Shown here: in pieces, positions 1 to 34,130 of the stretch
Numbering within the stretch: the stretch's first letter is position 1
Layout of the letters: each line of letters opens with the position of its first letter
From: Pocillopora verrucosa
Lineage: Eukaryota; Cnidaria; Anthozoa; Scleractinia; Pocilloporidae
Direction of reading: 5' to 3'
NCBI RefSeq assembly: GCF_036669915.1
Contig: NC_089313.1
Span: forward strand, 3,792,585 to 3,856,584
DNA length: 64,000 bases
Program-made: the position numbers and the translations under genes
Notes under the pieces: generated by a model
The model's database searches: none
Seen by the model: only the letters and a program-made list of their open reading frames with translations
What the model was told of the DNA's origin: nothing

Positions 1-3000
1 CCGTCCATCTGGGTGAGCTCTTAGATTCCTGGTCGTGCCTGAAATTCATCAGATATTGCCACGTTCTCCGTAGTCGCTGTTCATGCTAAAAAAACAATCA
101 ACGTATTTGCAAGTTTGAAAATCTCATTTCCCTTTGAGGACATTTTTTTTGGGGAAAATACTGATTCCATATAAAGGAAAGAGGGAGAAACCGCCTCAAT
201 CTTATATTGAAGCAAATTAGTACGCATGTGCATTGGGTGTTACATGTATGATAAATCCGTACCCAATTAAATCAAAACAAAGATACAACAGGAACTCTTT
301 AAAAAAAATGGAAGCAAACGGTGTGAACTAAGGGGGGTGAAGTGAGGGGGTGAAGTGAGTGGCCGAGTCGAGTTTGGATTTTGTTTTGAAACTGAGCTTT
401 TAGCTGGGGAAGATGAGTTTCCTCGACCAATCACGAAGCGGTTTAGAACAAATCGAAGAAATAAAGAGTTTCTTTCTGACGTAAACATGGATCAATCTAA
501 ACCTCTAGTGCAAAAATTCGAGGCATTCAGTTTTTTACTTAATTCAGTTTCATCAGAAAAAGTTGATGTGGTGTAATGTGAATTGACCAAAAGCTGACGT
601 TTTGATTGTCAGTCTTAGAATCCTTTGTACGAGGGCCAATTCACATTATCGACTCAGTTGCTAAAACCAAATTATCGTGTCACATAACCAACCGACACTA
701 CACCACAGTTTCTTTAGAAACTTACTCCATTATTAATTCGTTAGTCTCCCAGGAGAATAATTTTTACCTTCGTAAAGAACTCTTTGTGAATGGCAGAGGA
801 ATCCATGAAAAATCCCATCACTTTTGTCGCAGTTGTCTGGATGCCCGAGATGAAAACACAATTCAGTCCATGTGCGAGACAATGACACAAGAGACACCGG
901 AAAAAAAATTCAATCGTTTTTTTTAGCTTTCCATCCTGGCAAGGAATGTTTTCAGCATCCGTCAACAGGAAAAACGCAGGGACTTCGTCATCAACGTAAT
1001 CTTTCCATCTCTGTCCCCAAAGATTCACCATTAAGGTTTTTACGGTAAAATCTGTGTTGTGCTGGAGATGAAGAATAAGTGCTTCCCGAGCGAGCAGCAT
1101 GGACGGATTACCTCTCCAGATTATCTCCATGTCTTTGAAAAAAACGACGTGGAAAACGCCGCCTAGGGGAAGAATAAGTGTGGAATAACTTTTCAGCCTA
1201 GTGATAAATTAGTTATGTGTGTTTATCTAGCCGGAAAGTCCACCAATCGTAAAACCCAACATAAGGAAGAAAAACTCATACGACTTATAATTACGCAGGG
1301 AATCCTGCACCCCAAGGAGTTGCGATAATTTTTTTCTTTTTCGCTTTTGTCCTGTGGTAAAGAGGGAACTAAACTGAGGCTTGTAAGCATGATTTTTGAA
1401 TTTTTGAGAATTTAATTTTTTGAGGGCCCAAAACCTTTCGACCACCGGCTAGATGCGGTACGGCGGAGGTGTAGGAAACCCATGTGCATTCTTTTGGCAT
1501 ATGCCGTGATTAAAGCGTCCAATTGTCTTTCCACAAACCTTTCTCTGTAAACGTTTGCAAAAATCGCTCCGTTAAGTAGGCAAGATGCAGAAATTGTCCA
1601 CCGTTACTCCAATCCAAGCTTTCCTCGCCAAGAATTTCTAGCAGCAAGGAGTCGCCATCAATGAGGAAAATCTTTGCGTCTGAAAAGTCGGTCAGGATGT
1701 TGACAAACCTGTTTAGTATAGAACGAATAGTGAGTATTTCTTGCTTGTGGAAACAAATTTTCGTTCTCGTGCACGCTCGTTCCAAAATTAGAAAGAATTC
1801 ATAATCGATTAATTTACTTATTCGCTATTTAAACGATTTTCACACGCATTATATTTCCACTCTCCATTTTCTTCTTCTTCATTCATTCTTGTCATACCTC
1901 TTTCTATTTTGAAACTACTGATGAGGATCTTTAAAATGTATAAAGAATAACAAGGCCAGACCACAACACTGGGAGCTACGTTCCCTACGCTCTGCGAGAA
2001 GTGAGTGGGCTTTCTGACGTCCCCTGCTAACCAGCCCGGGAAAGATGCGGGAGACGGAGCTCATGACTTATCGTCCTTATCCATGAAGACTAAAATGTCT
2101 AACCATTTGCAGATGTCATACAAAAGGCAGCACATTCTCTTCAGTTATTTTAAGACCCTGAGTATTGATCCGGTCTGGGGCTTGAGCCGTGGATCTTCCG
2201 CACGGCATTTGGGCGCTCTGCAACATAAGCTGACCAAGCGCAGTCTGATCTGTATACTAACTTGGTATTCACTCCTCGGCCATAAAAAGTCTTTCTGACC
2301 AAACGCATAACGTTGGAGAGGTTAGGCGGAAATTTATGAGGTTTTTCATTCTTGTCAACGCCTATCCCAGGTAACTCTTCTGGTCTTCCACCTACGTCAA
2401 TCAGATAGGTTGGTGTAACTAAATGTTTTATAATCATCTCAATAGTTTAATTATTCTCCTTGTCGACTTGAGTACAGAGTCCCACAGCACGGCTTCTCCA
2501 GTGATATCGTTCAAAAAATGCTTTGTAATAGAACTAAATTCTTTTCCATCACTTTATAATAAGTAGAGTAGCGATTATTTTCCCAAAAACTAGGGCAATC
2601 ATCTAATGAAGGACGCAGAATATGCCTCATTATTTTCTTTGTGCTTGTTTGGGGCGGAAAAGGTTAGCTAGCGAAAAGATGATTTGAGCCAAGTCTGTTT
2701 ACCTTCATTCAGCTGCACTGGCTCTTTAGCAGATTGTCCTTCCTCATCCTCGTCACTTTGCTCTTCGTCTATATCTTCCAGTTGAAATTCTTCTTCTTCG
2801 TCGTCACTGTCAGCTTTATCAATAATAAAAAATTAGATTTCTACGCAAGTGACACTTTCAAAAAAAGGTTTGTGTGCAAGGAATGAGACCGCACGAAACG
2901 TATTATTTCATTATTACCATTAGATTGTTATTTGTAGTAGAGAAGTCCATCATGTGTGGCGAGACCACATTTTAGTTGGCCCTTGCAACTGAGATGAACC

Positions 3001-11100: not shown

Positions 11101-14100
11101 ATGGCGAACAGTGGGGTGGAAACGGATCTTTTGTCCGAAATACAGAACGCTTTTCTCAGCGAAAAACAAAATCTTGTAGTTCAAAACGTTGGAACTCAAT
11201 ATGATCCAGTCGAAGTTTGTCTGGACAGAAGTGTGGCCGAAACAGTCAATCATGTCTTCAAACACAAGGTAAGAGAAACGGACGAACGCTCTCGGGTACA
11301 GTTTGTACCTATTTATGTTCCGGATGATACGAGTATTGTAGCTTAATTATTGCGCCTGGCTTTGAACCAATCGCACGTTTACACTGTCTGCTGCAAAATT
11401 TTTTATTTTTTTTTAATTTAAAAAGTATTTTGATTGCCCATTTTTTTAGTTTTAAACTTTGACTCGTTGAAATTCCCGGCCACGACCAACGTAGGTTCGT
11501 TGCGTTATCAGTAATCATGTGTGTTGCTTGAGGGATTAATTTCACTCAGGAATTTCTCATTTTCATGCCTGTTAGTACCTTTAGAGTCATTTGAGATAAG
11601 GCATCAAAACCCCAGTGAAGTGAATGTGATTTGATGTTTGGGTGATTGGCATACATTGCACGATTATTTCTTTAGGACTCGATGTATATTTGAGTCAGTC
11701 AGTTGCATCATTAAGGTTTGTGAAGGACCCTCAACCAACTGTGATAAATCGCATTTTTCCCCATACTCTTTTTTTTATGAAGATGGGGAGAGATTTCATA
11801 CCTGAAACTCAACACTAATTTGGATTTTTGTCAGAATTAGTAGTTATTTATTACTGGTTGCAGGTACCAGTTTTGAAGAGAGTTTTTCTCCAAACAACAA
11901 AGATATTCGTGAGATATTTTGTTCCTGGTGCCATTCTTTGAGATTGGAACATTATGCCTTATATCATAAAAATTCTTAGCCCTTTCATTTCCAAAATCTC
12001 ATTAGTTTATCTCCTCACTGTCTTCCATAAAATTCTTAATGAGTTAGTTTGGAGAATTCTGTATTAGATCAATTAATAATCCTCTTCTTTATATTTTTGT
12101 TTATCCCAATCACTTCTCTGCTTGATATTGTACTGGTATTATAAGGATAAATTCTGTTTTGGTCACTCAGGGGACTTTTAAAAGGTTCAGTGTGATTTGA
12201 TTTTATGTTGGATATATTGAAATGTGAATGAGTAAGTGTGTTTTAGATGTTAAGGATAAAATACATACTTTATTAATATTTCAGGTCAATGAAGTTAAAC
12301 CAGTAACAAACCAAAGGGCATCTGGACGATGCTGGATATTTGCATTTTTGAATGCAATTCGCCAAAAATTTGTGCAACACTTTAACCTGGAAGACTTTGA
12401 GTTTAGTCAACAGTTTCTCTACTTCTGGGACAGAATTGAAAGGTCATATTTTTTCATAAATACTTATGAAGAACTGGCTCGCAAAGGGGAAGAACCTGAT
12501 GGGCGATTGATGATGTTTCTTTTGTCCAACCCTTTAAATGATGGTGGTCAGTGGGACATGCTTATCAACCTGGTGGAAAAGTATGGCCTGGTGCCAAAGG
12601 CAGTCTGGCCTGAAGCATTTACATCTAACAGGTCCATGAGATTCAGGAGGATAATCAATCACAAGGTATGCTATAAAAAACACAAAACTATGGTATGATC
12701 TCAAAGTTTGAAATCATGACCCCCACTTTTTCTATGAATTCAACATATTAATGATATAGCAGAGACAAAAAGGAATTCAAGTCAGGGGGTGTTGAGGAAA
12801 TTTGGAAAGGGTTCCAGATGCAGAAACATCTTGAAGGGTCTTTCTTTCCCCAGCTTCATTTGAATTGAATATTAAAACTGAATTTGTCCATTGCCATGGA
12901 CTGATCTTGCCCACTTGAGCTACTGACATCTGTACAGTCATGTAAGAACAGCTAGAGATGCATTGAAATCATTAGGAATTGAGAAGAAAGAGGGAGTTGT
13001 TGCACATAATTGGCCCATTCCATGCAGTAGTTAAGTAATTTCATATAACTGAAAGTCACAATGCATATGGAAGACAGTGTCAAATTGAGGGTGCTAAGAG
13101 GATGTTTCACATGACATGCACCACATAAGTTATAAAAGGACAATGATGTTGAAGTTTTTTTCCTGATTCACATGGAACAATTATACATACAATCACATAC
13201 ATATATCACAAGTTATATCATTTTTAAATAATGACTTCCCACATTAGCTGATAGACTCAGCATTCACTCTGTGAAAATAATCTCTTGTGAGAATCCAAAT
13301 GATGAACTAAGAAAAAAATAATGAAACAGCCACAAGAAATGTATACAAAATGTTTCCTTTGCTGTCATGCCTTGGTAGATGAAAAAATCTTATCTTTCCA
13401 CCATCCTGGTATCAAGCTTGCCCATGACTTAATGTTGTCTTTGCAGCTGCGAGAATATGCTGTGCAGCTTAAAGAACTGGTGGACAAGAAATGCAGTGAG
13501 GAGGAAATGAAACAAGCTAAGAAGAAAATGATGACAGAGGTGAAAAAAGTCATTTCTGTCTTGTCCTAGTTTACACCTTTGAGCTTCTTTTGATCAGATT
13601 CTCTCCAGGTTGATGTTGATAATAAAGATGCAGTGATTATTGATGTACCACAAGGACAGAGATTCTAATGGAAAGTTCTACTTATTTTGCTTATTCCATT
13701 TTTTTTTTTTTTTTACAATCTTAGGTATATAGGATAACAAGCATATGCCTTGGCACTCCACCCAAGAATTTTGAGTGGGAGTATATTGACAAAAGTAAAA
13801 AATATTGCAAACTTTCAGGATTAACTCCGCTTCAATTTTACAATGAGCATGTCAAACCAGTTTACAACCCGCTTGACAAGGTATGCAATGCACTTGTATA
13901 TGGACAATGATATGTTTAGCTCTTCCGATTGATCACCCCTGAATCACATAGTAAGGTCAAGAGAATGAAGAAAATGATCACCAACTAAAGATGCTTTAGA
14001 TTGTAAAACAAATTCTCCTCGTCAGCACCTTCAGAAATGTATAGAGAACAGTATGGAGAATATGCATGCTGATGTTAGGGTGTAAAGGGTTAATTGCTAT

Positions 14101-17100
14101 ACAGTCCAGTTTAAATGAATCATGTTCTGTGATAGAGCTTCTAGGTTACAGACTGGTTAACCTAAGCTTATTGTTTATTTAATTGTTATAATTCAGATCT
14201 TCATTATTGATTCTTAGCTTTTGATAACAGATCAGTGTTTATCACAATTTTGTTTTCTTCTTCAATAAACCAATGTCTTTTATGATTATAAAAATGGAAA
14301 GATTACTTTCTATTGAAGATTTTTCCCCAGACCCTAGCAATGCAACAGGAGATATACTGGCCCTAATGTTAACAAATGAACTTAACCCTTTTACCCTCAT
14401 ATCAAATTTGTTATTCTCCTTACTGTCAACCATACAATCTTGTTATGTTAGTTCAGAGAATTTAGTATTGAATCAACTAATTACCCCCAAATTGATATTT
14501 TCCTTTATTCTCGTCACTTACCTGGTTGATATTGTATTGATATTGTTGGGAGAAATTCTGTCTTGGTCACTCGGTCACTCGTGAGAGTTAAAGGATTAAA
14601 AGAGAACCAGTTGAGAAAGGATTTCACAGATTGAAAATGACCAAATCGGAAAAAATTGTACAACATTTTGTCATGATGAACGGAATGTGCTAATTTAGTT
14701 CCTTCAAGATAACCCTCACTGACCCTCCAGAGATCTTACCAATATTGTAGGCTTTAACCACTAGGTGATTTGATCTTTGTTACATACATGTATTACAGGT
14801 GTGCCTAGTGAACGACCCTCGAAATCCTTACAACAAACTGCTGACAGTAGAGTACCTCAGTAATATGGTGAATGGACGGCGTGTCTTATACAATAATCAA
14901 CCTGTGGAAGTTCTCAAGAAGTTGACAGCTGCGTCTCTTAAGGACAACGAGGTAAGGGATATGATATGTTTCCTTCTCTAAATGCACAAGTCAAGGGCTG
15001 CCTCTTGTTACCACTGTTGGTTTATTTACAGGCCCTTTTTGAATTTTGTTGTTTTTTTTCCCCTTGTAATGAACTAGTTGGCTAATGCATAAATTTGTTA
15101 GGAGTGTGCCATCAACCAATCAGAAAGTGGGCTGTGAGATAGTTTACTCACTCTGGTTGGCAGACGGAACTCAGTATTTATTTCAGTTTCCCCTCTTGCA
15201 GGGCCAGTCAATAAACTTAGAAAAGTAGTTATTTCCTTGATGTACAGTGTATTAAGTATGCTGTTTGATTCTTTACCATGAGGAGATGTTTGGATAAATT
15301 GGTATGCCAGAGGGAACAGCCTTGTTGCAAAAAAGTCTGATTAAAAGAAAAAAATGGACTACAAGGCAAAATGTTTCCCAGGTTGTGAGCAGTCACCAAT
15401 TGACTATTAGAGGTTTTTTTTCGTGAGCTGTTGTCACACATGAAGAACAACATGACTGCTATTAAAGTATTCTTGTCAATGGAAGTCAATTTTCTGTTGG
15501 TTTGGGAACCAGCTATTTTTTTTTTTTTTAATTATCAGTTTCGTACTTTTTTATTTGGAACTCTTAAGCACTGTGCACGTAAAGGTATAGTTAAGATAGT
15601 TTGTAGAGCATTGGCAAACACAACTTTCCAGTAAATCTCATTGCCTTTTTGAAGAAATTAACTAGTACTTTGTCTTTTCTTCAGGCAGTTTGGTTTGGAT
15701 GTGATGTTGACAAACATTTTGAAAGAAAGATTGGAGCACTTCATTTGGACATGTAAGTTTACAACGTTACTTTCATATTTACTTCTTTATCCGCAGTTCA
15801 CATGTATGATTTTCATATAATCTCAGTTATTTATTTATCACTTCATAGGTTTATTGTTGGCTTGTTGGCTCAGTTGGTAGAGCACTGCGCCGGTATCGCA
15901 GAGGTCATGTGTCCAAATCCCGTACAAGACTGAACTTTTTTCAGGCTTTATTTCCGTTACTGCTCAATTAGTGTTCATTACTGTGAATATCGCTTTCGTA
16001 TTCACCTCTTTATTAATTCTTCTTAATTGATTTTCATATATTCAAAGTTATTAGTGACATTCTTTTTTAGAAAGTTTGTTTTTGTGGCGTTAGAGAGTAA
16101 AACGACATGTTTCATATATAGAAAGATAAATAAATTAAGAAAGTTTATCAATAAGTTGATTATTTTTTTTTCTATACGTTGTTACACGGTTTCTGTCACT
16201 TTCTCTGTCTCTAGAAGCTTGACACTGTATATTTCCTGTTTTTTTCCTCTGCAGTCATAGCTATGAGTTGACATTTGGCATTTCCATGAAGTATTTAAAC
16301 AAAGCTCAGCGTTTGCTGTATGGTGGATCGCTCATGACCCATGCTATGGTGTTCACTGGATTTTCCTGGGAGGTGAGGATTGTCTGTTCCAAGCTTTCAG
16401 TTAGAAAAACAGCTGCGCGATAGCAAACAGCGGGACAGTATCGGCGGAGCGAAAAAACACGGCGGGGCTGGGTCGGATCATATGACGTTCGTCGATCGAC
16501 CTGACCCGAATCCCCTTCGTCTTTTTTTGTCCGTCGCTACTATAGCACTCCGTTTTACTTCCTAAACATCTGAACCATGCAACGGTGAGGAGCAAAACAA
16601 GGATGCAGTGAACTCTATGTACAAAACTGTTCTTGGACTTTTAATCCTCTCTTTGCCTCACGTCGACAAAGTGTTGAAATGTGTGGAGAGAAAGATAGCT
16701 CACAAAAGTGACCATGGTAAATTTTATTTCTTTAAAGCAGCATGGCGTACTTTCAAGAGAAGAGGTAGAAGAGACATTGTAAGGAGGAAATGATAAGGAT
16801 AGAGAAATAGGGTAAAAAGTTTGCGTGGGAAAACACTTGCTCTCAATTAAGACTGAAAAATCTGAAAAATGAACTACAAGAAGTCTTGGAGGAATATAAT
16901 CGCCTTTTACAATTTGTTCTTTCCTTGGATTTTCAGGAAAACACCAAAACTACAGACACTGAAGATCCTTTAAAACTAGTAGAGGAAGGTGCTGCAGTGG
17001 ACATTAAAACCATGAAATGGCGTGTGGAGAATTCCTGGGGTGATGAGAAAGATAAGCCAGGCTACCTTATGATGACGGACAGCTGGTACTCAGAATATGT

Positions 17101-17248
17101 CTATGAGGTTGTTATAGACAAGAAATATGTTCCGGATGATGTGTTGGGTGTCCTGCAACAGGAACCAATAGTGCTGCCTGCTTGGGATCCAATGGGGTCC
17201 CTGGCGTGTGTTTCGTGTGACAATGAGGTACAAATATCTCATTTGTAA
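11101..17248 (+). CDS. BLMH: Bleomycin hydrolase (C1B cysteine aminopeptidase)
   Basis: Eight exons with consistent phases: 11101-11268, 12285-12665, 13447-13539, 13725-13880, 14799-14951, 15685-15752, 16255-16372, 16937-17248; 482 residues (human about 455). The family is a cytosolic homohexameric aminopeptidase that trims peptides and inactivates bleomycin. The papain-fold active site is complete: Cys72 in NQRASGRCWIF, His369 in SLMTHAMVF, Asn411 in WRVENSWG. Family blocks NPLNDGGQWDML, YNKLLTVEYLSNMV, YNNQP and LPAWDPMG are present. An insert of about 16 residues precedes the Asn motif. After PAWDPMGSLA, where relatives end within a residue or two, 13 more residues follow; they run across a possible donor (GAG|GTACAA), so a further exon could replace the last six. 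Introns carry a SINE and several dispersed repeats. Confidence 0.93.
11975..12190. repeat. Dispersed non-autonomous repeat, copy 2 (BLMH intron 1)
   Basis: Begins near CCCTTTCATTTCC and ends with AAATTCTGTTTTGGTCACTC. It shares the series CTGCTTGATATTGTACTGGTAT...GGTCACTC with the copies at 14385 and 54500. Confidence 0.45.
13925..14095. repeat. Dispersed repeat, opposite orientation (BLMH intron 4)
   Basis: Contains GATCACCAACTAAAG and AAATTCTCCTCGTCAGCACC and ends in GTAAAGGGTTAA. The same segments recur at 20630-20740, showing that it is a dispersed element. Confidence 0.5.
14385..14600. repeat. Dispersed non-autonomous repeat, copy 3 (BLMH intron 4)
   Basis: Runs from TTAACCCTTTTACCC to GAGAGTTAAAGGATTAA. 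The ends are imperfect inverted repeats of each other, supporting a MITE-like nature. The same internal order occurs at 54500-54700. Confidence 0.5.
15866..15995 (+). mobile_element. tRNA-derived SINE in BLMH intron 6
   Basis: A tRNA-like head shows an A box (TTGGCTCAGTTGGTAGAGCA) and a B box (GGTCATGTGTCCAAATCCC). The body runs GACTGAACTTTTTTCAGGC to a tail with TTCATTACTGTGAATATCGC. The anticodon region is unlike a working tRNA and there is no 3' acceptor stem, so it is a SINE and not a tRNA gene. A close relative is at 19385. Confidence 0.75.
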
Positions 17249-20836: not shown

Positions 20837-22537
20837 TTACGGCTTAGCCGAACGTAGCTCACGTAAGACCTCTTTGAAATTTAGCTCCCAGAGCAACTCA
20901 TCGTTAACTCTCAGAACCTGACGTCTGAATCCTCGAGGGGGAGGGGGGTGGGGGCTTTCTATTAGTTCTTTGATTGGAGGAAAATCGAAGAATCCAAAAA
21001 ACGCTGGGTCATAGCAAATATTATGAAGCAGATATGATAAAACAACTTATTTCCTGCGCTTTAATGGCTGGTTGACAGGAGCAGTGACAAATACCGAAAA
21101 ACAATTAATTGCTTACCTCTGTACCGACGGTTTGATCAGACTTAGAAGATGTTGCGTCCCTGAAATGGGTGGTTGAGTAGAACAAAGTTTTGATGATACT
21201 CAAGAAAGACATTTCTATTTGAGTTTTAACTATTTGAATAGTTAGAAATATAGAGCATTTATCGCTGAATTTCGAATGCTATCAAGTATTTCTTGATTCG
21301 TTTACTGCTTCATTTCGATATATGATCTGTGATTGTCCAGAAAACTTGCGCCTACTACTACTCTATCAGGTGTAAAAATTAAACCAAATGCGACTTGATC
21401 ACTTGAGTTTTTCCATGCTTCAAAGCGTTTCCTTGTTTTGATTCTGTGTTCTAACTGGCTCCTTGTGATTGGTCGTGGTACTTAATTCTGGTTTCCTGAT
21501 CTCAGTCAGACTGTGTTGTGTGACCTGTCAGGTTACTTTGTGTTGTGTTTGAGCAGAGAACAACGATTTTAAAGAACGTGAAGGAGCTTTAATTGCTAGA
21601 TACACAACTGCTTACTTACTTAACTTAACCTAACCCAAAAAACATAGACAACTAATTACATATTTATACTGCCGCTGCATAACATTACGTAATGAAAGGC
21701 GATCACAAGTTCACAATACATGATGAACACTGATTTTAGGGCCTATTTACAATCGACACCACACTTTGGGCTTTTACAGAAACTCTTTATGTTGTGAATG
21801 TGCAGTGATTCCGGAAGTATGAGTTTACCTGTAATCCGGTTCCTCAATCTTTACCCATCAAGGTTTCCTATTTTGATTAATTTTACCTCCTCTGCTTTAT
21901 TTCGCATAGAACCCAGCTGATGATTTGAATTCTCTTTCAAGTGGCAATTTTTTCTTTTATGTGTCGCAGGAATAAGAGAAAAATCCTAACTTTTCTCCTT
22001 TGAAGGCATAAAAATTTTCAACGAAAGGAAACTTCCCATAACAACCAGTGGCTGCAAGATCCTTCGGGCGTCTAAAAATGGTATGTCTTCTGGAAACATT
22101 AGCTGGTTTTCACTGCTGACTGAAAGGAGGTTGTAGCCTTCATATGCCACTTGTCCTACCCAACGTTAACTTCTTTAAGGTTTTGGTTTGCAGTAACCAA
22201 ACATTATTTGATTGATATACGAGTCTGATCACGTTCAGAAGGCTTCTGCTCCTACTTACCTGTCAGTCGTGGCCTGTTCGGTTTCCACTGTATCTCCCCT
22301 CTTGTCAATAAAAAAATTAAAGAAGAAAATAAAATGAGATATTTAGATCAGAATGATCTGCATTCAAAGCTTAGATCACACGGTCCTTTTACGGAACTCA
22401 AATAAGTTGAATCAAGATGATTTTGGCGCTCGCGAAACAATGAAAAGTCGTACCTGCAACTTCTGCGTCGATGTGACTTGAAAAACTGCAAGAAGAATGA
22501 ATAACGCAAAATTGAAAGAAATCGCACGGCGGAACAT
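20837..22537 (-). CDS. Secreted peptide precursor D (unrecognised family)
   Basis: Four exons: 22537-22454, 22300-22260, 21159-21117 and 20917-20837, all GT-AG and in phase, 82 residues. Exon 1 encodes a signal peptide (MFRRAISFNFALFILLAVF...). Exons 2-3 (41 and 43 bp) give a Thr/Ser/Asp/Glu-rich pro-region. Exon 4, behind a long C/T tract, gives a cysteine-free helix-prone C-terminal peptide (NDELLWELNFKEVLREL) ending in KP. Unlike its relatives it has no Lys-Arg site before this peptide, so it may be processed differently or act uncut. Exon sizes and phases match gene A closely (its exon 3 is also 43 bp), and the 5' leader AGAGGCATCATG is almost identical to that of gene C. Role unknown; a host-defence, signalling or venom peptide are all possible. 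Confidence 0.6.
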
Positions 22538-23244
22538 GATGCCTCTAACGCAAATGCGAAAGAGACAGTCGAAGTTTTTCTGTGAAACGTATGCTGTCTT
22601 GAAGCAGTTTTAAAAACTGTTAGTGCACGATAAGTTAAGACTGTATAGAGAAGGTCTCTGAAATAAAGTTATCTATGTGCGAGGATCTTTAAATTAAATT
22701 TCTCTGATTCTGTTCAGTCATTTGTTGAGGAGGGACAAACTAATTTAACTATCGATGATGAAACAGAGATATTGAAGGTTCCCTTTGTGAGAATATTCTA
22801 TACGTTTTTAACTGATATCATTCATTTGCTAACTCTAATATAATTTTGTTAGAAAAGGCCTTTTAACTCAGTAAATAAAACTATGATAGCTGACTGTGCA
22901 ACTTAAGAAGTTTTGGGTATGCATTGAAACAAGGCCACACGGACAGAATTTTCGAGAGGGGGTTGCGTTTTTTATATACGACGATGCAAAGCCAGCAGGA
23001 CTCTGACTGATATAGATCTATGAGTGGGTTCCACAACTTTGTTTTCATTCATTTCCTTGTCAGCAAGCTGCTCAATACAAACTGAATGAGATATGTAGTT
23101 CCTCTCATTGGTGCCCCTGCACCCTAAAACATGCTGAAGTATTGAGAAACTAGCGATTTGACCTTGACACGTCCAGCAACGTTGTGACAAAACTGTGTTC
23201 GCGTTCAACGAGTAGGTCGTGATTTCATTGTTTTTCAACAACCT

Positions 23245-24108
23245 TGATTGGCTGATTTTTAATTTTTTGGAATCTATTGTTCTGACTTCTGTCTCGTTTT
23301 CATTGTGTGGATGTTGTTGGCTTGAGTAGAAGCCCAGCAGGGTTTGGTTGACTTTTAATTTGTTAGAATCTACTGTTCTGACTTCTGTTTGGTTTTCATT
23401 GTGTAGATGTTGTCAGCTTAAGTAGATACCCTGCAGGGCTTGGTTGACTTTTAATTTGTTAGAATCTTCTGTTCTGACTTCTGTTTGGTTTTCATTGTGT
23501 AGATGTTGTCGGCATAAGTAGATACCCTGCAGGGTTTGGTTGACTTTTAATTTGTTAGAATCTTCTGTTCTGACTTCTGTTTGGTTTTCATTGTGTGAAT
23601 GTTGTCAGCTTAAGTAGATACCCTGCAGGGTTTGGTTGACTTTTAATTTGTTAGAATCTACTGTTCTGACTTCTGTTTGGTTTTCATTGTGTGAATGTTG
23701 TCAGCTTAAGTAGATACCCTGCAGGGTTTGGTTGACTTTTAATTTGTTAGAATCTACTGTTCTGACTTCTGTTTGGTTTTCATTGTGTGAATGTTGTCAG
23801 CTTGAGTAGATACCCTGCAGGGTTTGGTTGACTTTTAATTTGTTAAAATCTACTGTTCTGACTTCTGTTTGGTTTTCATTGTGTGAATGTTGTCAGCTTG
23901 AGTAGATACCCTGCAGGGTTTGGTTGACTTTTAATTTGTTAGAATCTACTGTTCTGACTTCTGTTTGGTTTTCATTGTGTAGATGTTGTCGGCTTAAGTA
24001 GATACCCTGCAGGGTTTGGTTGACTTTTAATATGTTAGAATCTACTGTTCTGACTTCTGTTTGGTTTTCATTGTGTGGAGGTCGTCGGCGTAAGTAGAAG
24101 CCCAGCAG
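23245..24108. repeat. Minisatellite, nine tandem 96-bp units
   Basis: Unit starts fall exactly every 96 bp from 23245, for example 23341, 23437, 23533 and on to 24013. Each inner unit ends GATACCCTGCAG (a PstI site), and carries TTCTGACTTCTGTTTGGTTT. The first and last units instead end GAAGCCCAGCAG. Inner units differ at only a few positions. The length is a multiple of three but every frame contains stops, so it is not a coding repeat. Confidence 0.95.
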
Positions 24109-24905
24109 GTTTTTGTCAAGATTTAACTTTTCTCTTTCCTTTCTATAACATACTAATTTCGTGTCAATTTTTACTTTTTGGTAATTTGCTCCACGGGTAT
24201 CGCAAAATTATCCTTTTTTAATCCTTAAAACAGCCATTAAACATATATATGAATCCTCTTAATTTAATAGCTCACATTCATTGTTTGCTCTGCTTACTAG
24301 AAATATTACAATGCAAAACGTAACCACAGATTTTCAGGGATGCCTTTATTTCAATAAAGTTTGGCTACATTTTATAACAACCAAGCGACATATGCATCTT
24401 TTACTCTTCATAACATTAGTACAAACAGTGTTTCGTTCATCGTCGACTGTGATATCTGTCGGGTCTTGCTTCTGTCTTGTCTCTCTTCACCTATTGACAA
24501 TAAATAGTGGGGGACTTGAATAGTCTAAATCAGAGGATAACATTTTGGGAAACTTCTATTTGTGGAATGGAGTGGCTCTGAATAAACAAAAATGATCTTA
24601 AACATTGGTTGGCATAGATAAGAAAGAAGGACTTAAAGCGTGAAGAGATCCAAACAGTGCGCACCGCCATGTTGGATCGTACGACGTTTTACGCTTGATT
24701 TTACTATTTGCACTATCCCCTTGGGACTAATGCAAACCAATGAGCTTTTTCCATATAATTAAACAAAAAAAGGCCATGCGCCTCAAGTTCATCTGTAAAT
24801 AAAGATCCGTCCGTTTTGACAGACCTTGCCATTTTTTTGTAGTTATAGTAACAAGTAGCTGTCCTTAATACCTATGTCAGTATTCTGGATCATAAATTTT
24901 CTTAC

Positions 24906-25121
24906 CTTTAGTACTTCCTTTTACCAAGTAACGACGTGATTATAACTCCCCGGCGTATTGTAATGGTTTGGATTCTATGAAAAGGAGGAAAATGTGTAAT
25001 ATTGTAAATGAAAATTACATACCAAGCTGAAAGGCAGTTGTCAAGGATATATCGATTTTCTTGATGAATTTCCCTCCCACTTCCCTTCCATATGCTGCTG
25101 GCTGTTTGAACGGGTTTGAAG
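24906..25121 (-). CDS. Two orphan exon-like segments
   Basis: Segment 25121-25023 (99 bp) follows GGCTCTGCAG and ends at G|GTATGT. Segment 24974-24906 (69 bp) follows TTTTCATAG and ends at AAAG|GTAAGA. Joined in the best frame they read ...REVGGKFIKKIDISLTTAF... then ESKPLQYAGEL and a stop. They lie on the same strand as, and downstream of, peptide gene C, but the phase does not fit its signal exon. They may be exons of a missing or decayed fifth copy, or of an unrelated gene. Confidence 0.25.
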
Positions 25122-26095
25122 CTGCAGAGCCGCCATAGGAATGAAAAGCGAAAGGGTTAGGGGAGAAAATTAAGAAACAGATCCATTCTCCTTTCGCAGC
25201 TCGTTACATCGTTTTTGCAATTTCGTCACTTTCATTTCCACAAGATAACTGAAAATTTATTTATCGTGGCGGTTACATCAATTGCGCACTCAAATCACCC
25301 CTCGATAAACGTAAATTTCCCATCTAGCTGTTACACATTTCATTGTAATTTAGTTAAAAGAATTCAATGTTATATCATGATAATAACCTCCAATCCCATA
25401 ACTTGTCGTTAGATAGTGTATGGATATTGTGGGGAGAAGTTACATGCAAATCACTTCTGGGAGTTAACGGGTTAAAGTTCTTGTTTGGTAATAAGGGTGA
25501 CAGTGCTTGCCTTGATATGTAAACTCATTATAATGAGCTGAATTCAAGATTTGAAAAAATGACAAGTTCGTCAGACTTTCCGTATGAGAGTAAATGGAAT
25601 AAGGGAGATGGCTGTTTGAGAAAGATATTTTAAGTCCTAGATACAAAATCTGAACATTATGTCTTTCCCACAATCTTATCTCTCGATGAACCAGTAGCCC
25701 TCGGAAAAGTAATCGGAAGTGGGTACATCGTGGGCAACGCTACCAGTCATAGGAACATATTTCTTTTTTTCCAACAGAGAAGCGTCTATGCGATGATGTC
25801 ATCGCCCGTTACCTTAGACGAGAGGTCTCAACTTATGCAAGTAAATCCTACCACTGCTTATAATGAATCTCCTTGAAATGATAGATATTCAGAAAATCCT
25901 CTAGGAAAATTGATCATAAGAGATCTTAAACCACTTGTCCCTTAACAATACTATTGATTTTCTTGCAAAGAGTCGAAAATGGTTCTCATATTACCATTCT
26001 TAACGAAGCGTCGAAACCCTCCACCTTGAGTTGGCCCAGTGAGCCACTTATTTCAGTAGGGAAGACTAAGGCTATTCCAATAAGAGTGATGCTTG

Positions 26096-26504
26096 CTAAG
26101 CTATTATCAAGTAATCAAGGCGGAATTGAAGCTGATCACGTAACATTAGGCCAGATATCTTTTTAAAGATTCCTCTCTTGGTCTTGGTTGCTGTAAAACC
26201 TTCTGGTACCTGCAGTGAAAGAGGATAATGATGCTGCTGCCGCTAGAAGCTTAACATGATGATGATCAAGTTATGCAATGCGTCTTTATTTTCGTTCTAA
26301 ACGAAAGTGAAGATAAAGAAGTTCTTTCCATCAAGCAGTCAATAATATTTGAATTCGTAAAACATATATTATGACTTTGCCAAGGCTATGTAGCTGATCA
26401 TGAAAAATAAAGCTTACCTGTTTTAGCCTTTGTGGCGTTGTCTGATGAAATAGCAAGAAAATACATAATGCTAAGAGAAAGAAATAAAATTTTCCGCAAA
26501 ACAT
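26096..26504 (-). CDS. Secreted peptide precursor C (unrecognised family)
   Basis: Two exons: 26504-26418 and 26209-26096, 66 residues. Exon 1 is a signal peptide (MFCGKFYFFLLALCIFLLF...) ending in phase 0 at CAG|GTAAGC. Exon 2, after TTTCACTGCAG, encodes VPEGFTATKTKR followed by a cysteine-free, cationic, amphipathic-looking peptide beginning GIFKKISGLMLRDQLQF. Lys-Arg is a likely prohormone-convertase site, leaving a 25-residue mature peptide. Gene B has the same plan (MF.GKF.F signal, VP-x-x-aromatic, TKR). The duplicated non-coding blocks upstream of both genes show that B and C are recent tandem copies. The two acidic pro-region exons present in A and D are absent. Function unknown. Confidence 0.6.
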
Positions 26505-28504
26505 GATGCCTCTGAATTTTAACTTTGTCAGAGTTGAAATTGCGTTATCGTAAATACGAGATAAACGGATAAATAACTAAGTCACTGAGCTTACATTAGA
26601 GGAGGAAGTCTGACAAAAAGGCGGTTTGTTGTGACACAATTCCAAATGGGAAAAATTAAAAAGAAAAGAAAAAATAACCTAAGTGAAGCTGCTCTGTGAA
26701 TTATGTTTTGATCAATTTGTATTTTGACGTGAAGTGACCTTGTTTTTTGTTGGGGGGAGGAGGAGGGATCAAATTGAGATTATGGCGGCAATTTATCAGA
26801 TACCACTCAGACCCCAACGTTGAAAAATTCAAACAATGAAACAAAACAGAAAATGGTTGTTTTGAGAATCTTTAAAAAGCAGTTTTTACTCTGATATGAA
26901 TTTCATGGCGCCTTGAAGAGAACAAATCCTGCGTGTTTTGAAACGATAAACGAGTGTCTTCTTTTGAGCTTAAAGTATACTTTTATAATTAAATTTTCAT
27001 ATCCATCATCAATTCTGGAAGTGTTGAATAAATGAAAATTTTTACTTTTTGAAAGAGGCAATGGATGAGGAAGTCCCCTGGACTTTGTTTATTAATTTTC
27101 AAGTCAAAGATAACAAAAGAGTAAAAGAAGTTTATATATATTTTTTATTAATCTTTCAGTTGGTTCATTCTCTCTGGGAGATACTACTTGTGAGCAACTT
27201 GCATGGTGGCATTTCTTCACCTTTTGTTTAATCATCTATGTCAAAACAGTTCTCTCTCTCTCTAAAGCCTGATGAATGGAGATATAAAGTTAATCATAAT
27301 AAACAATCCAGTGACATTCGATCCAGTGATGAAGGTCATTCCTTTTAAATAAAACATGTATTGAGAGTTTTGTTAAACTTTACCAATTGGTGGTTTTCAT
27401 ACAGGAACCTTCATTGAGTTTTAAAAGCGGGGTCCCCTTTATTGTTTATTTCAGGAGCAGCTGTACTTTGTTCACTGATACAATGTAATACCTAAGTATG
27501 ATTTCAACAAGGAACCGACTGATCATAAAGCAACTAACGATTAGCATAAAAAGCATCTCTCAGAGTGAAAACTCTCCCCAAACGCGGGTGGTCCTAGCTT
27601 CCAGACTAAAAAAAAAATAGCTGAAGCAATGGTAATATTAATGACTGAAGGGCATTTTGGTCTGGAATCATACTAATGATTTTCAACACAACAGAACCGA
27701 AAAAGCTTATTTAAGAAAATTGAAAAGCCAAAGTTTTTGGAACAAACGTTTCAAATTCCCCACATCATAGCTTCTTTGTCTTTCTTTTTCTTGCAATTTC
27801 ATTGGTTACTTTTCAGAGGCCATGAAGTCTCATGGCTTGTTTAATTCGGTTTTGTGTTGCCTCCTCAATTGGTAGGAAAAGATGGGATTTAGGGCAAAAA
27901 TTAGTGCGATTTGTGAATAAGTCACACCCTTGAGAGCCAATCTGATTGCAAAGTTCACTAATTATTTGAAAATGGATGTTTTTGGAATGAAACAGTAATG
28001 ACGTTGACGATATGATCTTGGCGATTTTGATGACGATAAATGATAATAAAGTGAATTGTGAAAGGGTTTGACTAATACCTCAACTGAATGTCCCCGTTTG
28101 GACAACGCACTGCTGTAGCTAACGCGCATATGCCGGTTCCATGGAGGAGACTATGAAGGTAAAAGCAATTGAATACTTTTAAAGCATGGGTGAGAATTGC
28201 TTGAGAATTGATGCACTCGGAAGACTAAATAAGACCTATAATTTTAATATTTATAATTATGCAGTTTTTGTAACCGCATTACAACTAATAAATATGAGTC
28301 ATAGGAGTTACAAGAGTACATACAGATACTACCAATAAAAAGTCGCATCGGGTTTGAAAATTACATCTCATCAGAGAAAATGAAGGAGAAAACAGCTTAC
28401 AAATAACTTCATCAAGTGTACATAATCCTCAAAAGAGGACGTTAAGTTACTTTTAAAAGCTGGACAAAGAACGATCCAAACGATAGAAGGTAATAATCGT
28501 AAAA
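26505..28504. other. Intergenic region between peptide genes C and B
   Basis: Contains the duplicated block above. A 35-bp exon-like segment (about 28087-28121, minus strand, between TAGCTACAG and GAG|GTATTA) could be a non-coding first exon of gene C or a last exon of gene B. No other gene seen. Confidence 0.4.
26750..27450. repeat. Duplicated block upstream of peptide gene C
   Basis: Shares ordered segments with 28995-29745, for example ATTAATCTTTCAGTTG, GCATG-TGGCATTTC-TCACC, AATAAACAAT, CAATTGGTGGTTTT and GAGTTTTAAAAG. It keeps the same position relative to gene C as the other block does to gene B, so a unit of about 2.3 kb was duplicated in tandem. Confidence 0.65.
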
Positions 28505-28822
28505 TTAAGGCCATTGACTTACTAAAGCGTCAACAACGCTTCTAAGAAGTCGTCGTTTAGTCCAAACTGCTTTGTAGTTATCAGGTACCTTAGATGAAAA
28601 AAAATAAGGAAAAAAAAACCTAATGATACAATAAAATCGATGATCCCAATTTTGATTTTGCAGATGAAATGGTCGTAATTTTTGCAGACGATAGTCAACT
28701 TCTCGGATTTTAGGCTTATGACTGATGTCTATAAAAGACAAACCTACCTGTGCCATATTCTGATAACACAGCACGAAAATCGATACGGTGAAGAGAACGA
28801 AGGAGAACTTTCCGTAGAACAT
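28505..28822 (-). CDS. Secreted peptide precursor B (unrecognised family)
   Basis: Two exons: 28822-28748 and 28588-28505, 52 residues. Exon 1 is a signal peptide (MFYGKFSFVLFTVSIFVLCY...). Exon 2, after TTTTCATCTAAG, encodes VPDNYKAVWTKR and then a short cationic helix-prone peptide RLLRSVVDALVSQWP. The Lys-Arg site implies a 15-residue product. The intron is 159 bp and has no stop in the reading frame, so an unspliced transcript would give a longer protein; splicing is preferred because gene C is built the same way. A GTAAGT near the end of exon 2 could instead splice to an unseen exon, replacing the last five residues. Role unknown. Confidence 0.55.
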   Translation of the reverse strand: MFYGKFSFVLFTVSIFVLCYQNMAQVGLSFIDISHKPKIREVDYRLQKLRPFHLQNQNWDHRFYCIIRFFFPYFFSSKVPDNYKAVWTKRRLLRSVVDALVSQWP

Positions 28823-28994
28823 GGTACCCAATGGTTCTGATTTAAGCAGAAGTGATTTTTGTTCTTTTGTTCTTGAAGCATTGAGCACAAATGGACGCGA
28901 TGTTTTAAAAAAAACCCTTCTGTGGGACAAACTTCAGAGTAGGAAAAAAAAAACCTTAATCGAACTAAACTACCAACAATTTTTTATTATTTGC

Positions 28995-29745
28995 ATTTTA
29001 ATGTAAACGGGGATCTTTTTATGGGGGCGGCTATAGCGTTGGTATTTTAGGTATTAATGAGACCCCAACTTTGCAGAATTGACAGAAAAAAAAAGGGGCT
29101 CTTTATGAATGTGTTGAAAAAGACAGTTTTTAATTTGATTAGAATTGTATAACACTTTGAAGGGGAAAAATCTTTAGTATTCGAAACGTTACAAATGATT
29201 GATAAGGGATGGTCTTCTTTTGAAGTTTAGTTGCCTTTAAGATTTTAAATGTTTCACTTCTGTGCTTTTTCTGTTTTCCTTTTTTACTTTTTAGGACAGT
29301 CTTGTGTGATCAGTAATTCCACATATATCGCCATTATTTCCGAAAGCGTTGAATGAGAGATAATTGTTACGTTTTTGAAGGTCGCAGCGGATTAAAAAGC
29401 GTCCTTTATTGGATCCTCGATCGCCCTATCAGAGGTGACAAAAAGGTGAAATATTTTTAATTCTTTAATTAATCTTTCAGTTGTTACATTCAGTCCCAGA
29501 GATATTGTTTGCCAGCAATTTGCATGTTGGCATTTCCTCACCGTTCTTCACTCTTTCTTTGCAGCCTGAAGAATGAAGACAAAAAGATAATCAAAATAAA
29601 CAATGCATTTAGATTTGATTCAGAGATGAAAGTCATTCTTTCCAAATTAAACCTGTTTTGAGAGCTGTGTCAGATGTTATCAATTGGTGGTTTTTATGTA
29701 AGAACTTACGCTGAGTTTTAAAAGTAAGGCCACCAATTTGATAAG
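28995..29745. repeat. Duplicated block upstream of peptide gene B
   Basis: Partner of 26750-27450; best similarity is between 29445-29735 and 27130-27440. Identity was estimated by eye and appears moderate with small indels. Confidence 0.65.
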
Positions 29746-30760
29746 AAGCAATACCCCGTTCATTGATACGTAATAACCCCTATGACGTCATTTTGACGAT
29801 GGCATAATCCGATCACTTATCTTATTCATATTTTTACCAGTGTTTCTCACTGTGAGTTACAGTATATTTATATTACAGAAGGAAATATGTTGCCTAAGTC
29901 AGAAAAAATTAAAATATTCACATACTAAAGTGCCAAAGACCTTCGGGCACTGATATTAGACTGAAGTATCACAGAATCTAACCCTCGGCTCAAATTCAAC
30001 AAAGTCATAAAATTCCTACTGGTGGAGTGAAGCAAATTGACACCAGGAATATCTTGGCTGTCGTAAATACTAATTTGAATGAAATGATGTGTTGATTTTT
30101 ATGTCCACGAAGAAATATCAACTACGAAAGATTTCTGTATTTCTGAGTCAAGAGATGTCACGTACAGCTGCCATAATAATAAAAAAATTACACAAGTGCT
30201 GTCCAAAAAGTAGCAAAAAGGGGAAAAACAGATTTTTTCAAAAATAGTCTAAAAAAAAACTTCTGCATATGGAAATTCTTTGAAAAAGAATAGTTAAATT
30301 AGTAATTATGTGAGTGTAAGTAATCTGCTCTATGGTTGAACCTAGTTGGACCAGTGCGGGGCTACTGTAGTGCTTCCTCACTTATTAATCGCTTTGTTTA
30401 ATTTGTGAAAGATTCTTCAAAAATAAAATCCAAATAATCATGAACACCTGGGTCGATGCTTCACTACAGATGTTTGTGGTTGCTTTTCGGAATGGTTTTG
30501 ACTCGGGCTCGATGCCAAATTCTAAAATTTAAGGGAACCTCTCCGCATTGAATGAATACACGACTAGCAAAATCAGCTTTTCGAGATAGATGATTAGTAG
30601 GACTCTCTGGACGCGGGTCACTTTTCACTCGATAACGCTGCCTCCGTTATTAAAAGAATCTGAGATTACTGATAATCTACAACTTTCTCGTACTTTTGCT
30701 TGGACATGGCTAAAAAGGGAAAACATCAACCATATACAACCACGAGCATTTTGATTATGC

Positions 30761-30766
30761 TTTATT
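30761..30766 (-). promoter_or_regulatory. Polyadenylation signal of peptide gene A
   Basis: AATAAA on the minus strand, about 60 bp after the stop codon of gene A. Its position supports the last exon and strand of that gene model. Confidence 0.5.
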
Positions 30767-30826
30767 TCAAACAAGTTTGTATCCGTAACAAAAGAGTATG
30801 TTGGCCCTGAGGCTGAGTGACTTGAG

Positions 30827-33800
30827 CTATTCTAATAAAGCTTGCACACTGGCTCTCAATTGTTGCTTGTAAAAGTTTCTCATTAGTTCAGGTGCCTTGT
30901 CCCTTTTTCCCTAAAAATTTTAAATGATTAGGAAAAGTTAAACATATTAACAGTTGGCCAAAGGTTACATTATTCTTCCGCAAACGGGAGAAACTAGCAG
31001 TATTCCTTGTTGCTTCATGCGGCATTAGTTACGAAGGTCGACCTCTTTAATTTGCTGACATGATACATTAAACGTCTGAGTTATGTTACCTGCGCGCTTG
31101 GAACAATAATCATAAAGTTAACAGCCATTGCTTTATTACTAACCTAATAGCGCGGGTAATGACGACTGAATTCCATTGTTTCAATTTCTGCTGGCTGTTA
31201 CATGAATCATGAAAATAACAAGGATAGTTGTGAAACGATGGAAACTATCACATCACTATCAAGCCCATAGAAAACTGAGTTTTGTAGGACCGGATTGGTT
31301 GACGTGAGCCGGTCCAGGAAAAGCCGTCCGGTCCTGCACTTACACGGCTTAGTCGCAAAAACTTAAAAGAAAAAAAGACCGAAAAAAGTCGCGTTTTTTC
31401 GATGAATTGTGTGTTTTTATTGTCCTGACTTGACGAGACCTCGATATGACCTTCGAACCAACTATTTTCCAGTCCGGCCCTCCCACTCAATCAATAAGTA
31501 CATAGTATTTCCGTAGTGAAAATGATGATATTGATTAGGATAATGTGAAGGAAATGATAATGATGGCCATAATGATGTGATAATTATTTCTATGGTAACA
31601 ATCATGTCAGTGATGATGAGGATGATGATGCTGATTATGATAATTGTGGCATCCAAATTGATTCTTATTTTAATAATAACGTCGCTGACAACGATATAAA
31701 TGCATGACGTGGTGATGATAGTCCAATGAAAGTACCTGTTCCTTCACTTCTCCTAAATTCTGAGATCTTCCGTCTCCCCTGTAGTAGATAAAATGATCAA
31801 TTACTTAAAATTAACTAACTAATAATGTACATGAAAAAAATTACGTGCTTCTGATCGGCTGAAAACTAGTAACACGAGTTTAAAGTTTAACGCGAGTGCA
31901 ATTTACGAATGACGCGCACGCTTTCAAAATTTCTTGACTCTCTGTAATGTTTTTCATGTACATTATTGGCAAGTAGTAACAGTAATTTGGTGTTAATTAA
32001 AATAATCGCCTGTAAATTTTTCAATAACCTCAATAAAATACCAAGTGCTTCCGTCTTCGTTTGTACACGGAACATTGTACGATAATGTGACGGTATAATC
32101 CAACACCACATTCCCACAAACTCGTGCAACTACTTTATTAAACAGCGAGTAATGTTCTTGACAAGGAGCTACTTCTAAAAGCAGTACAATACTTATTGTT
32201 AATAAACCTAATTAAGCCCACCACAGTCAATATCCTGGCTCACCACCGACACAATCTCACTGCTGTCTTCAAAGTTCTTTGAAATAAACGGCCTTCCGCA
32301 GTGACTCTCTCTCGGTATAGCTTTCGAAGCATTCGTCGCTCCGACAACAACAACTACTACTACTACCACTACACAAGTGAGTCTTAACATATCTTTACAA
32401 AGTGTTCTAGAACATTCCAGACGCTTACATAAGAACTATTTTAGAAGTAATACATAATAAATGCGCGACTTGATGAAACGTTCTGGAAAGTTCTAAAGTA
32501 TTCCAGTCAGCATGACTCAGCACTCTAGATATTTCTAGAAGCCTATATTTACAATAACAACTCGTAGCAATAAAGACTGGACTCATTAAGTCCGGAAAAA
32601 AGTTAAACAATCAACAAATCGAAGGATCAGTAAAAGAACCAAGTCTATTGTTTTTATAGTTTTTGGTCACTTCAGACTATTTTGATCCTTAAAACATTAT
32701 TTTGTGAGTAGCTATGAAATAATAGTAAATCTAGCTGATAACGTCGTTGTTTATGTACAGCTAAAACATGCTTTTAATTTTTGTCCAACATTTGACGTTT
32801 AACATACCTTTGCACCTCTCTTTCTCCATCTTCTCCCTGTCAAAGTATAGACGAAACAAGAAATAAAAAGAGAGAAGAGGTTGTTTTAGTCAGCGTTTTT
32901 TTGTTCTAAAAGTTGAACGTGTGGGCTATTAAACGTCATGAAAAGTTGTCATTACACCGTTATCAACAGACCTTAAAACATCAAAAACTTTTTTAATTTC
33001 TCATCAACTAACCAATTCGACAGAATAAAGAATGTTGAAAATGAATGTGTGCTACAGCCTTCATTAAATTGTGGCAGGTTTTATGAGAAATAAATGAGGC
33101 AATGGACTAAACCATGGTTAATGCAATCATGGTATCCTAACTTTCTAGGATAACTGTGATTTAATTTTCATCAAATTGAAGGAACTAAGTCGCAGTTTCA
33201 TATAAGTTCCTCAAATCCAATCGCTTTCAATCTTCTCGAAGCTCAAGAAGGGCAGCGGCAATCGAATGCTCCTCCTCCATCCCCCAACCCATCGCTTGTT
33301 TTGCTCCCTTTCACCCTATGGTGCTTCGTAGCTCACGCTTATTACGCGCGGCTAAAGGGAGCTGGAAATGATTGTTGTGAAGACTATACCTTCTTGTTAT
33401 TTAGGTGTGTTTTTACTATTGCTTCTAGGGGAGTAGTGTGGTTTTCTTTTCGCTGATGCCAAACGCTCGCCTTAAAATTTACTCAATACTCAATGCGACA
33501 CGAATCTTATAATTCCTGGGCATGTAGTCTTTAAAGGGTCTTATTCGCAGACTCCAACCCTTGTGATCCTGCCGATAAGGGGAAGAACAGTCTTTTAACT
33601 GGACAGTCACTTCCACTTATATTTAATCACTACCTTTCACGTTGTACTTCAAAGATTTTTCCAATTGAGTGACCTCATTTTGTCTTAATTTTTCGATCAC
33701 GTCAATTATTGCTCCTTGTCTAGAGCACAGGGCAATTTAGAATTTATGACGTGGAGAAAAGCTCTAAAACCATCAGCAAGTGATAGCCAAGTGATAAGAA

Positions 33801-34130
33801 ACAAAACAAAAATGCGAAGTTAGAGTTTCAGTAATTTTCATAGATGTTATTCATACCTACTATAAAATAGCCTGATTTATTAACAAAAAAAATTACTGAT
33901 CTAGAAACGTTTGTGTTTGGCAAGACCAAGAAACTTTCGATCTTCCCTGAAAACGCCATCAAACGCCTCCTTGATTGGCTGTGCATTTATATTTCAGGGC
34001 TGAGGTAGAGGGTGAAAATGTGTGCAAATAAGTTTGAATTAAATCTTACCCGTGCCTCTGATTTTGAACCTGACAAGTTCAGAAGGAGTAAAAACGCGAC
34101 CGTGGCGGGCAAAACTTTTTCACAAAACAT
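30827..34130 (-). CDS. Secreted peptide precursor A (unrecognised family)
   Basis: Four exons: 34130-34050, 32836-32808, 31778-31736 and 30910-30827, with consistent phases and GT-AG borders, 78 residues. Exon 1 is a signal peptide (MFCEKVLPATVAFLLLLNLSG...). Exons 2-3, only 29 and 43 bp, encode an acidic Gly/Glu-rich pro-region (GEDGEREVQRGDGRSQ). Exon 4 begins GKRD, a dibasic site preceded by Gly (a pattern also used for C-terminal amidation of an upstream peptide), and continues with a cysteine-free amphipathic peptide (PELMRNFYKQQLRASVQALL) to the stop. It is the largest gene of the cluster because of two long introns; intron 2 holds a nested small ORF. Same plan as gene D. Function unknown. 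Confidence 0.6.
31490..31660. repeat. GAT-rich low-complexity region
   Basis: Imperfect GATGAT/AATGAT repeats in intron 2-3 space of peptide gene A. No coding signal. Confidence 0.7.
32208..32390 (-). CDS. Small ORF with poly-valine signal-like start
   Basis: A 60-residue frame from ATG to stop. It begins MLRLTC followed by ten valines, coded by a GTAGTAGTAGTAGTTGTTGTTGT-like microsatellite, then a polar part with ESHCGRPFISKNFEDSS and SQDIDCGGLN. The start looks like a signal peptide and the two cysteines could pair. It lies on the same strand inside intron 2 of peptide gene A. It could be a nested secreted-peptide gene, or chance coding over a microsatellite; no family is recognised. Confidence 0.25.
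   Translation of the reverse strand: MLRLTCVVVVVVVVVVGATNASKAIPRESHCGRPFISKNFEDSSEIVSVVSQDIDCGGLN

Follow-up and report, generated by a model that had tools for sequence, protein, structure and literature searches.

A tandem family of small secreted-peptide precursor genes in the coral Pocillopora verrucosa, one of them with a predicted amidated peptide

What is specified by the small split reading frames that lie close together on the minus strand of a Pocillopora verrucosa contig? The original prediction, made from the letters alone, was of four tandem genes (A to D) for short, cysteine-free secreted peptides. It was followed up in the window, the whole stretch of 64,000 nucleotides that was analysed, and by searches of protein, genome and literature collections. 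The contig that holds the window (C2) belongs to a genome of 353 Mb in 52 contigs, and this was the scope of the genome searches.

Four exons starting with MF and closed by a phase-0 donor were seen where predicted, all on the minus strand and within 12 kb: A (34130-34050), B (28822-28748), C (26504-26418) and D (22537-22454). In the models of A, B and C and in the revised one of D, all introns (8/8) are GT...AG and in frame. A scan for MF, a hydrophobic core and a phase-0 donor, a pattern derived from the finding itself, was run over both strands of 264 kb (the window with 100 kb on either side, 5 kb of this being N). It revealed the starts of A to D and one other start, on the plus strand and with two donors; ten control shuffles in 1-kb blocks gave 1, 0, 0, 0, 2, 0, 0, 0, 2 and 1 sites. 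With any ATG and any phase allowed and a stricter core, 8 sites were found in 42 kb of the window, A to D accounting for four. The signal parts had been described as conserved, which holds for B and C (12/25 residues identical, P 0.0003) and is not clear for the other pairs (C/D P 0.018, A/C 0.030, B/D 0.18, A/B 0.61, A/D 0.61). C and D have the same 14 bases, AGAGGCATCATGTT, around the start codon.

The surroundings include exons for a DDX60-type PIN-like domain (741-1824, minus strand), exons of a peptidase C1-like (PF03051) gene (12228-17248, plus strand) and a tandem array of nine 96-bp units that match at 94% (23248-24113), which lies between D and the candidate exon E described below. 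A single-exon rhodopsin-family GPCR (57533-58564, minus strand) lies about 23 kb from gene A and has 87% identity to a Stylophora pistillata protein that bears the name histamine H2 receptor-like. Directly after the end of the window there are 5000 N bases (64001-69000 in window coordinates).

A profile of A and D, built on the originally predicted models, was used to search the protein database. At E up to 10 it found three proteins among 46 candidates: P0052 (9.7e-30), P0053 (2.4e-23) and P0054 (2.7e-21). These multi-exon relatives of A and D bear out the prediction of tandem genes for short secreted-peptide precursors. The neighbouring GPCR, used as a control, returned 51 proteins at E up to 1e-10 (a count that includes its own cluster), with four coral names among the matches (Stylophora, Oculina, Orbicella, Montipora). 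Short spliced genes are easily missed in such a search, despite the corals in the database. No candidate with three 5-residue words in common with C was found in the protein-database search with that gene.

P0052 is an unnamed protein product labelled Pocillopora meandrina. It holds all four originally predicted exons and a further one, exon 1b, and with this included agrees with A in 98/99 residues:

34050..34130, minus strand: exon 1 of A, MFCEKVLPATVAFLLLLNLSGSKSEAR, phase 0; identical in P0052
33506..33568, minus strand: exon 1b of A, 63 nt (21 residues), DHKGWSLRIRPFKDYMPRNYK; between exons 1 and 2 in P0052
32808..32836, minus strand: exon 2 of A, 29 nt, phase 0 to 2; present in P0052
31736..31778, minus strand: exon 3 of A, 43 nt, phase 2 to 0; present in P0052
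30827..30910, minus strand: last exon of A, GKRDKAPELMRNFYKQQLRASVQALLE-stop, containing GKR, an amidation and dibasic site; present in P0052

GKR is the ordinary amidation-plus-cleavage signal. An AATAAA lies about 60 nt 3' of the stop codon. In the present genome exon 1b has AT directly 3', with no ordinary GT donor; read-through of this exon would give ...NYKIRVALSIE-stop. A single-sequence model of P0052 contains a helix at residues 78-98, with pLDDT of 81-83 there and 63.6 overall. The claim that genes of this kind are so small and divided that ordinary gene finding misses them is false for A, which is already a public Pocillopora meandrina protein product. In the relevant parts of one coral-genome paper (PMC10236652), Pocillopora cf. 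effusa genes are those originally named P. meandrina, and gene models came from protein alignments and mapped transcripts, the gene-prediction section giving no ab initio step. We infer that P0052 stems from this annotation; if so, the introns of A probably rest on transcripts.

For D the relatives led to a different last exon. P0053 and P0054 matched the revised D although the query contained the original D model, and both use 20434-20396 in place of the predicted 20917-20837, which is absent from both:

22454..22537, minus strand: exon 1 of D, MFRRAISFNFALFILLAVFQVTSTQKLQ; present in P0053 and P0054, each with one extra Tyr
22260..22300, minus strand: exon 2 of D, 41 nt, phase 0 to 2; present in P0053 and P0054
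21117..21159, minus strand: exon 3 of D, 43 nt, phase 2 to 0; present in P0053 and P0054
20396..20434, minus strand: D', final coding exon of D, QIRVGDYHYLYG-stop; preceded by an acceptor and 682 nt beyond exon 3
20837..20917, minus strand: last exon of D as originally predicted, VLRVNDELLWELNFKEVLRELRSAKP; probably not an exon

P0053 and P0054 (69 aa each) match the revised D in 66/69 and 62/69 columns, across introns of 153, 1100 and 682 nt; over exons 1-3 they follow the prediction except for a few substituted residues and the signal part, which has the extra Tyr. Their source label is 'lgn', taken as assembled public reads, on contigs of 1146 and 2206 bases. Since their frames cross three introns, they should derive from spliced RNA. 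Frame conservation in relatives, which had been anticipated for all four genes, thus extends to exons 1-4 of A and exons 1-3 of D; it fails for the predicted fourth exon of D, and the result for C was negative. It is very likely that D is transcribed in related corals, and its amidation-ready peptide is conserved.

An N-terminal signal sequence is predicted for D from the hydrophobic-core scan and from the N-terminal helix (residues 3-33) in a single-sequence model of P0053, in which the peptide part is unstructured. In the spacer of D acidic residues outnumber basic ones. The predicted peptide is identical in 12/12 residues in P0053 and 11/12 in P0054, these being the only two relatives; in the window and in both relatives Gln stands first, Gly stands last and the ending is LYG. 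Directly before the Gln the window has GTE (followed by QIRVGDYHYLYG-stop), Glu is also present in P0053, and P0054 has NAA. Parts of a mass-spectrometric study of Nematostella (PMC11087051) describe cleavage in front of Gln, in many cases with an acidic residue standing 1-2 positions upstream, and peptides amidated at C-terminal Gly. With Ala-Ala in P0054, conservation of an acidic residue at this site is lost, and a rule that strictly requires one is weakened.

The signal exon would direct the D precursor into the secretory pathway, cleavage before Gln would remove the spacer, the Gln would cyclise and the terminal Gly would be converted to an amide. The predicted product, pQIRVGDYHYLY-amide, fits an amidated, pyroglutamyl neuropeptide. 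If it were cut at its internal Asp, YHYLY-amide would result; this shorter form is possible, although it is the full 12-residue peptide that is conserved. An internal Asp and a length of 12 residues, both found in the D peptide, are unusual among cnidarian neuropeptides as presented in parts of a hexacorallian survey (PMC7523074).

A and D had been aligned around their last exons. This similarity is at chance for the predicted segments (P 0.41), as it is for exon 1 (P 0.61) and for exons 2 and 3 together (P 0.71). The two genes have an architecture in common, with exon 2 in phase 0-2 (29 and 41 nt) and exon 3 in phase 2-0 (43 nt in both). The kinship of A and D rests on this exon structure and on their neighbourhood. 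A candidate alternative last exon of A resembles D' in its arrangement:

31144..31194, minus strand: A', candidate alternative last exon of A, PAEIETMEFSRHYPRY-stop; a GT donor directly follows the stop, as in D'

An acceptor followed by 8-25 codons, a stop and a donor occurs 26 times on both strands of the 264 kb; between 15 and 60 kb of the window, A' and D' are the only cases. The pyrimidine tract of A' is weak (0.53), the exon is absent from P0052 and its peptide compares with that of D' at chance (P 0.33). That A' and D' are homologous exons is suggestive only.

B and C are, to judge by their sequences, a diverged tandem duplication, 2.3 kb apart, with related pre-pro parts and unrelated mature parts:

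28748..28822, minus strand: exon 1 of B, MFYGKFSFVLFTVSIFVLCYQNMAQ; 72% DNA identity to exon 1 of C (intron 52%)
28505..28588, minus strand: exon 2 of B, VPDNYKAVWTKR followed by RLLRSVVDALVSQWP-stop; the pro part resembles that of C
26418..26504, minus strand: exon 1 of C, MFCGKFYFFLLALCIFLLFHQTTPQRLKQ
26096..26209, minus strand: exon 2 of C, VPEGFTATKTKR followed by GIFKKISGLMLRDQLQFRLDYLIIA-stop
29287..29775, minus strand: block upstream of B, 71% identical (332/467 aligned columns) to 26961-27490 upstream of C

The upstream block occurs twice in all, no third copy having been found in the genome search. Its conservation (71%) equals that of exon 1, and it may be a regulatory element or a 5' exon; an MTFI... 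frame within both blocks has 15/25 residues identical, but the differences are spread as 6, 4 and 5 over the codon positions, and it was rejected as a gene. Nearer to the genes the identity is 65% and 52%. Exon 1 stands out at the DNA level; the two parts of exon 2 (56% and 48%) do not, although the 12-residue pro part within it shows clear similarity in protein sequence. The predicted common motif VP(D/E)x(Y/F)xAxxTKR was confirmed (z 8.7; P 0.0003, the lowest value attainable with 3000 shuffles), as was the Lys-Arg ahead of the last segment in three genes, A, B and C. Within the last exon of B an in-frame donor-like GTAAGT (28517-28522, minus strand) follows ...VVDAL, so that B may extend into a further exon.

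These DNA comparisons bear on the question of whether B and C specify functional peptides at all. A and D might be regulatory peptide genes, and B and C duplicates, either in decay or newly arising, that lack a functional mature peptide. The identity in exon 2 is indeed hardly above that of the intron (52%) or the downstream sequence (47%); the amino-acid identity over exon 1 and the pro part (18/37) is not significantly above the mean of 14.6 for randomly placed base changes (P 0.064); and C has no protein relative in the database search. The strong similarity of the pro-part peptides speaks against such a mixed locus, as do the open frames, donor and acceptor retained by both genes and the exon 1 lengths of 75 and 87 nt, which differ by four whole codons. 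We consider it rather unlikely. Substitution rates were dN 0.28 and dS 0.66 for exon 1, and dN 0.44 with saturated dS for the pro part. The ungapped mature part gave dN 1.19 and dS 0.43; no claim of positive selection is made, because the sites are few and an alignment of the mature parts may not be valid.

A probable fifth last exon, E, lies between C and D:

24437..24490, minus strand: E, VKRDKTEARPDRYHSRR-stop behind an acceptor; resembles GKRDKAPE... of A

Compared around AATAAA, the 3' region of E and the 3' end of A score 40, while 3920 random segments reach 38 at most; 40 is also the top score of ten last-exon-region pairs, the next being A/C (34). By blastn the match reaches only E 0.086, and the E peptide against the last exon of A gives P 0.064. 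No signal exon of the kind scanned for was found between C and E; E may therefore serve C as an alternative last exon, or be the remnant of a copy.

Strong divergence of the mature parts, as in an arms race, had been proposed for the whole family. It is found in the B/C pair only (after KR, P 0.71), where this reading is possible; for D it is not supported, as the conservation of the predicted peptide speaks against it. The last exons had also been taken to code for amphipathic peptides. In two shuffle tests each, this was so for B (0.03, 0.03), A gave 0.09 and 0.07, and C (0.79, 0.62) and the originally predicted D segment (0.23, 0.72) were no better than shuffles.

Both the amphipathic B peptide and the helix predicted at residues 78-98 of P0052 would suit a role in host defence, the genes forming a lineage-restricted clustered antimicrobial family like the Hydra arminins, in which a signal and a pro part precede a helical, membrane-active C-terminal peptide that is freed at KR. 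The retention of the pre-pro part of B and C, with mature parts that are unrelated, agrees with this, and so do small precursors, clustered paralogues and restriction to a lineage, features of the present genes that parts of a study of Hydra antimicrobial families (PMC10945409) likewise describe, along with a repertoire dominated by lineage-specific genes. Most of the Hydra peptides are described there as having biased charge and a complex cysteine pattern (PMC10945409), whereas those of the present locus are weakly charged and cysteine-free after the signal exon. The D peptide, moreover, is conserved and amidation-ready. In arminin-type antimicrobial peptides the C-terminal peptide is strongly cationic; the net charge is merely +1 for A, +1 for B and +2 for C, and C is not amphipathic. 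A defence function seems improbable to us on this evidence.

The absence of Cys after the signal exon in the models of A to D, as predicted, also separates them from the SCRiPs, whose mature part has a cysteine framework. Nematocytes or gland cells might use the genes for venom or for other secreted effectors; peptides of that kind would likewise be short, secreted (as predicted here) and tandemly duplicated, and the mature parts of B and C are variable. Lacking a cysteine framework, with no Pfam match for the four original models and with a conserved D peptide, the locus is very hard to reconcile with such a role.

The four original models had no match in Pfam at E up to 10, and six sequence words from the genes had none in the text of the literature searched. 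Within this scope, the statement that no described cnidarian family is represented agrees with the results. The scleractinian families named in parts of the hexacorallian survey are GPRGamide, GRFamide, GLWamide, RPamide, TRFamide, FHIRamide and RWamide (PMC7523074). In the scleractinian sections of its main text none of them ends in LYamide, and the LYG ending of D corresponds to no C-terminal motif of these families. The survey added TBLASTN and Regex searches, since repeat-seeking scripts miss single-copy peptide genes (PMC7523074).

When C, A, D, P0052, P0053 and B served as protein queries against the genome, this locus was the only match below E 1. Contigs C12 (E 1.14), C3 (E 2.3) and C4 (E 4.5) were rejected by eye as holding further members. 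These searches are insensitive, the C query not finding B and the B query not finding C, and distant copies may exist. The pattern M-F-[CY]-G-K-F occurred at 10 places in the genome, compared with 2 in the control; two of the ten are B and C, at six others inspected by eye nothing resembled a signal exon, and the last two lie on contig C14. No relative of P0053 was confirmed in prokaryote genome contigs or viral contigs.

The tandem peptide-precursor gene family is in our view genuine and modestly novel. On balance, we favour by a little the explanation that a tandem family occupies the locus, with at least four and probably five small genes for secreted-peptide precursors, and that these are most like single-copy cnidarian neuropeptide precursors. 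In addition to the route proposed for D, the spliced precursor of A, with its GKR site, would yield two products, an amidated peptide from the spacer and one of 24 residues from the C-terminus, for which a helix is predicted; from the duplicate pair B and C, related pre-pro parts would precede unrelated sequences after KR. A single peptide copy per precursor counts against the neuropeptide reading, as does the lack of a C-terminal Gly in B, C and E. A bioactive non-amidated peptide of Hydra is on record in part of the literature on that genus (PMC12440616), and B, C and E are therefore still compatible with it.

The closest likeness to the D prediction is to Antho-RWamide / LRWamide which, in the relevant parts of the survey (PMC7523074), have one peptide per precursor, several paralogous genes within a species, an N-terminal Gln and an amidated C-terminus. 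The LRWamide peptides are described there as following the signal sequence directly and ending in RWamide, whereas that of D is C-terminal and would end in LY-amide; the two have no sequence in common. FHIRamide peptides, in the same source (PMC7523074), have 14-19 residues and often internal acidic residues, comparable to the 12 residues and the Asp of D. FHIRamide precursors, as described there, carry multiple copies and a C-terminal HIRamide, neither of which is found in the present genes.

A more specific proposal is that the cluster specifies an undescribed, possibly pocilloporid-specific LY-amide neuropeptide family. A signal exon and a spliced spacer would be joined to last exons that can replace one another (A or A', C or E), and duplication together with the choice of last exon would generate different peptides. 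We advance this tentatively, as a possibility that is more doubtful than probable.

The locus illustrates how easily a last exon is misassigned in tiny split genes without transcripts. A conserved, amidation-ready coral peptide with a defined gene would be directly testable for effects on contraction, settlement and metamorphosis.
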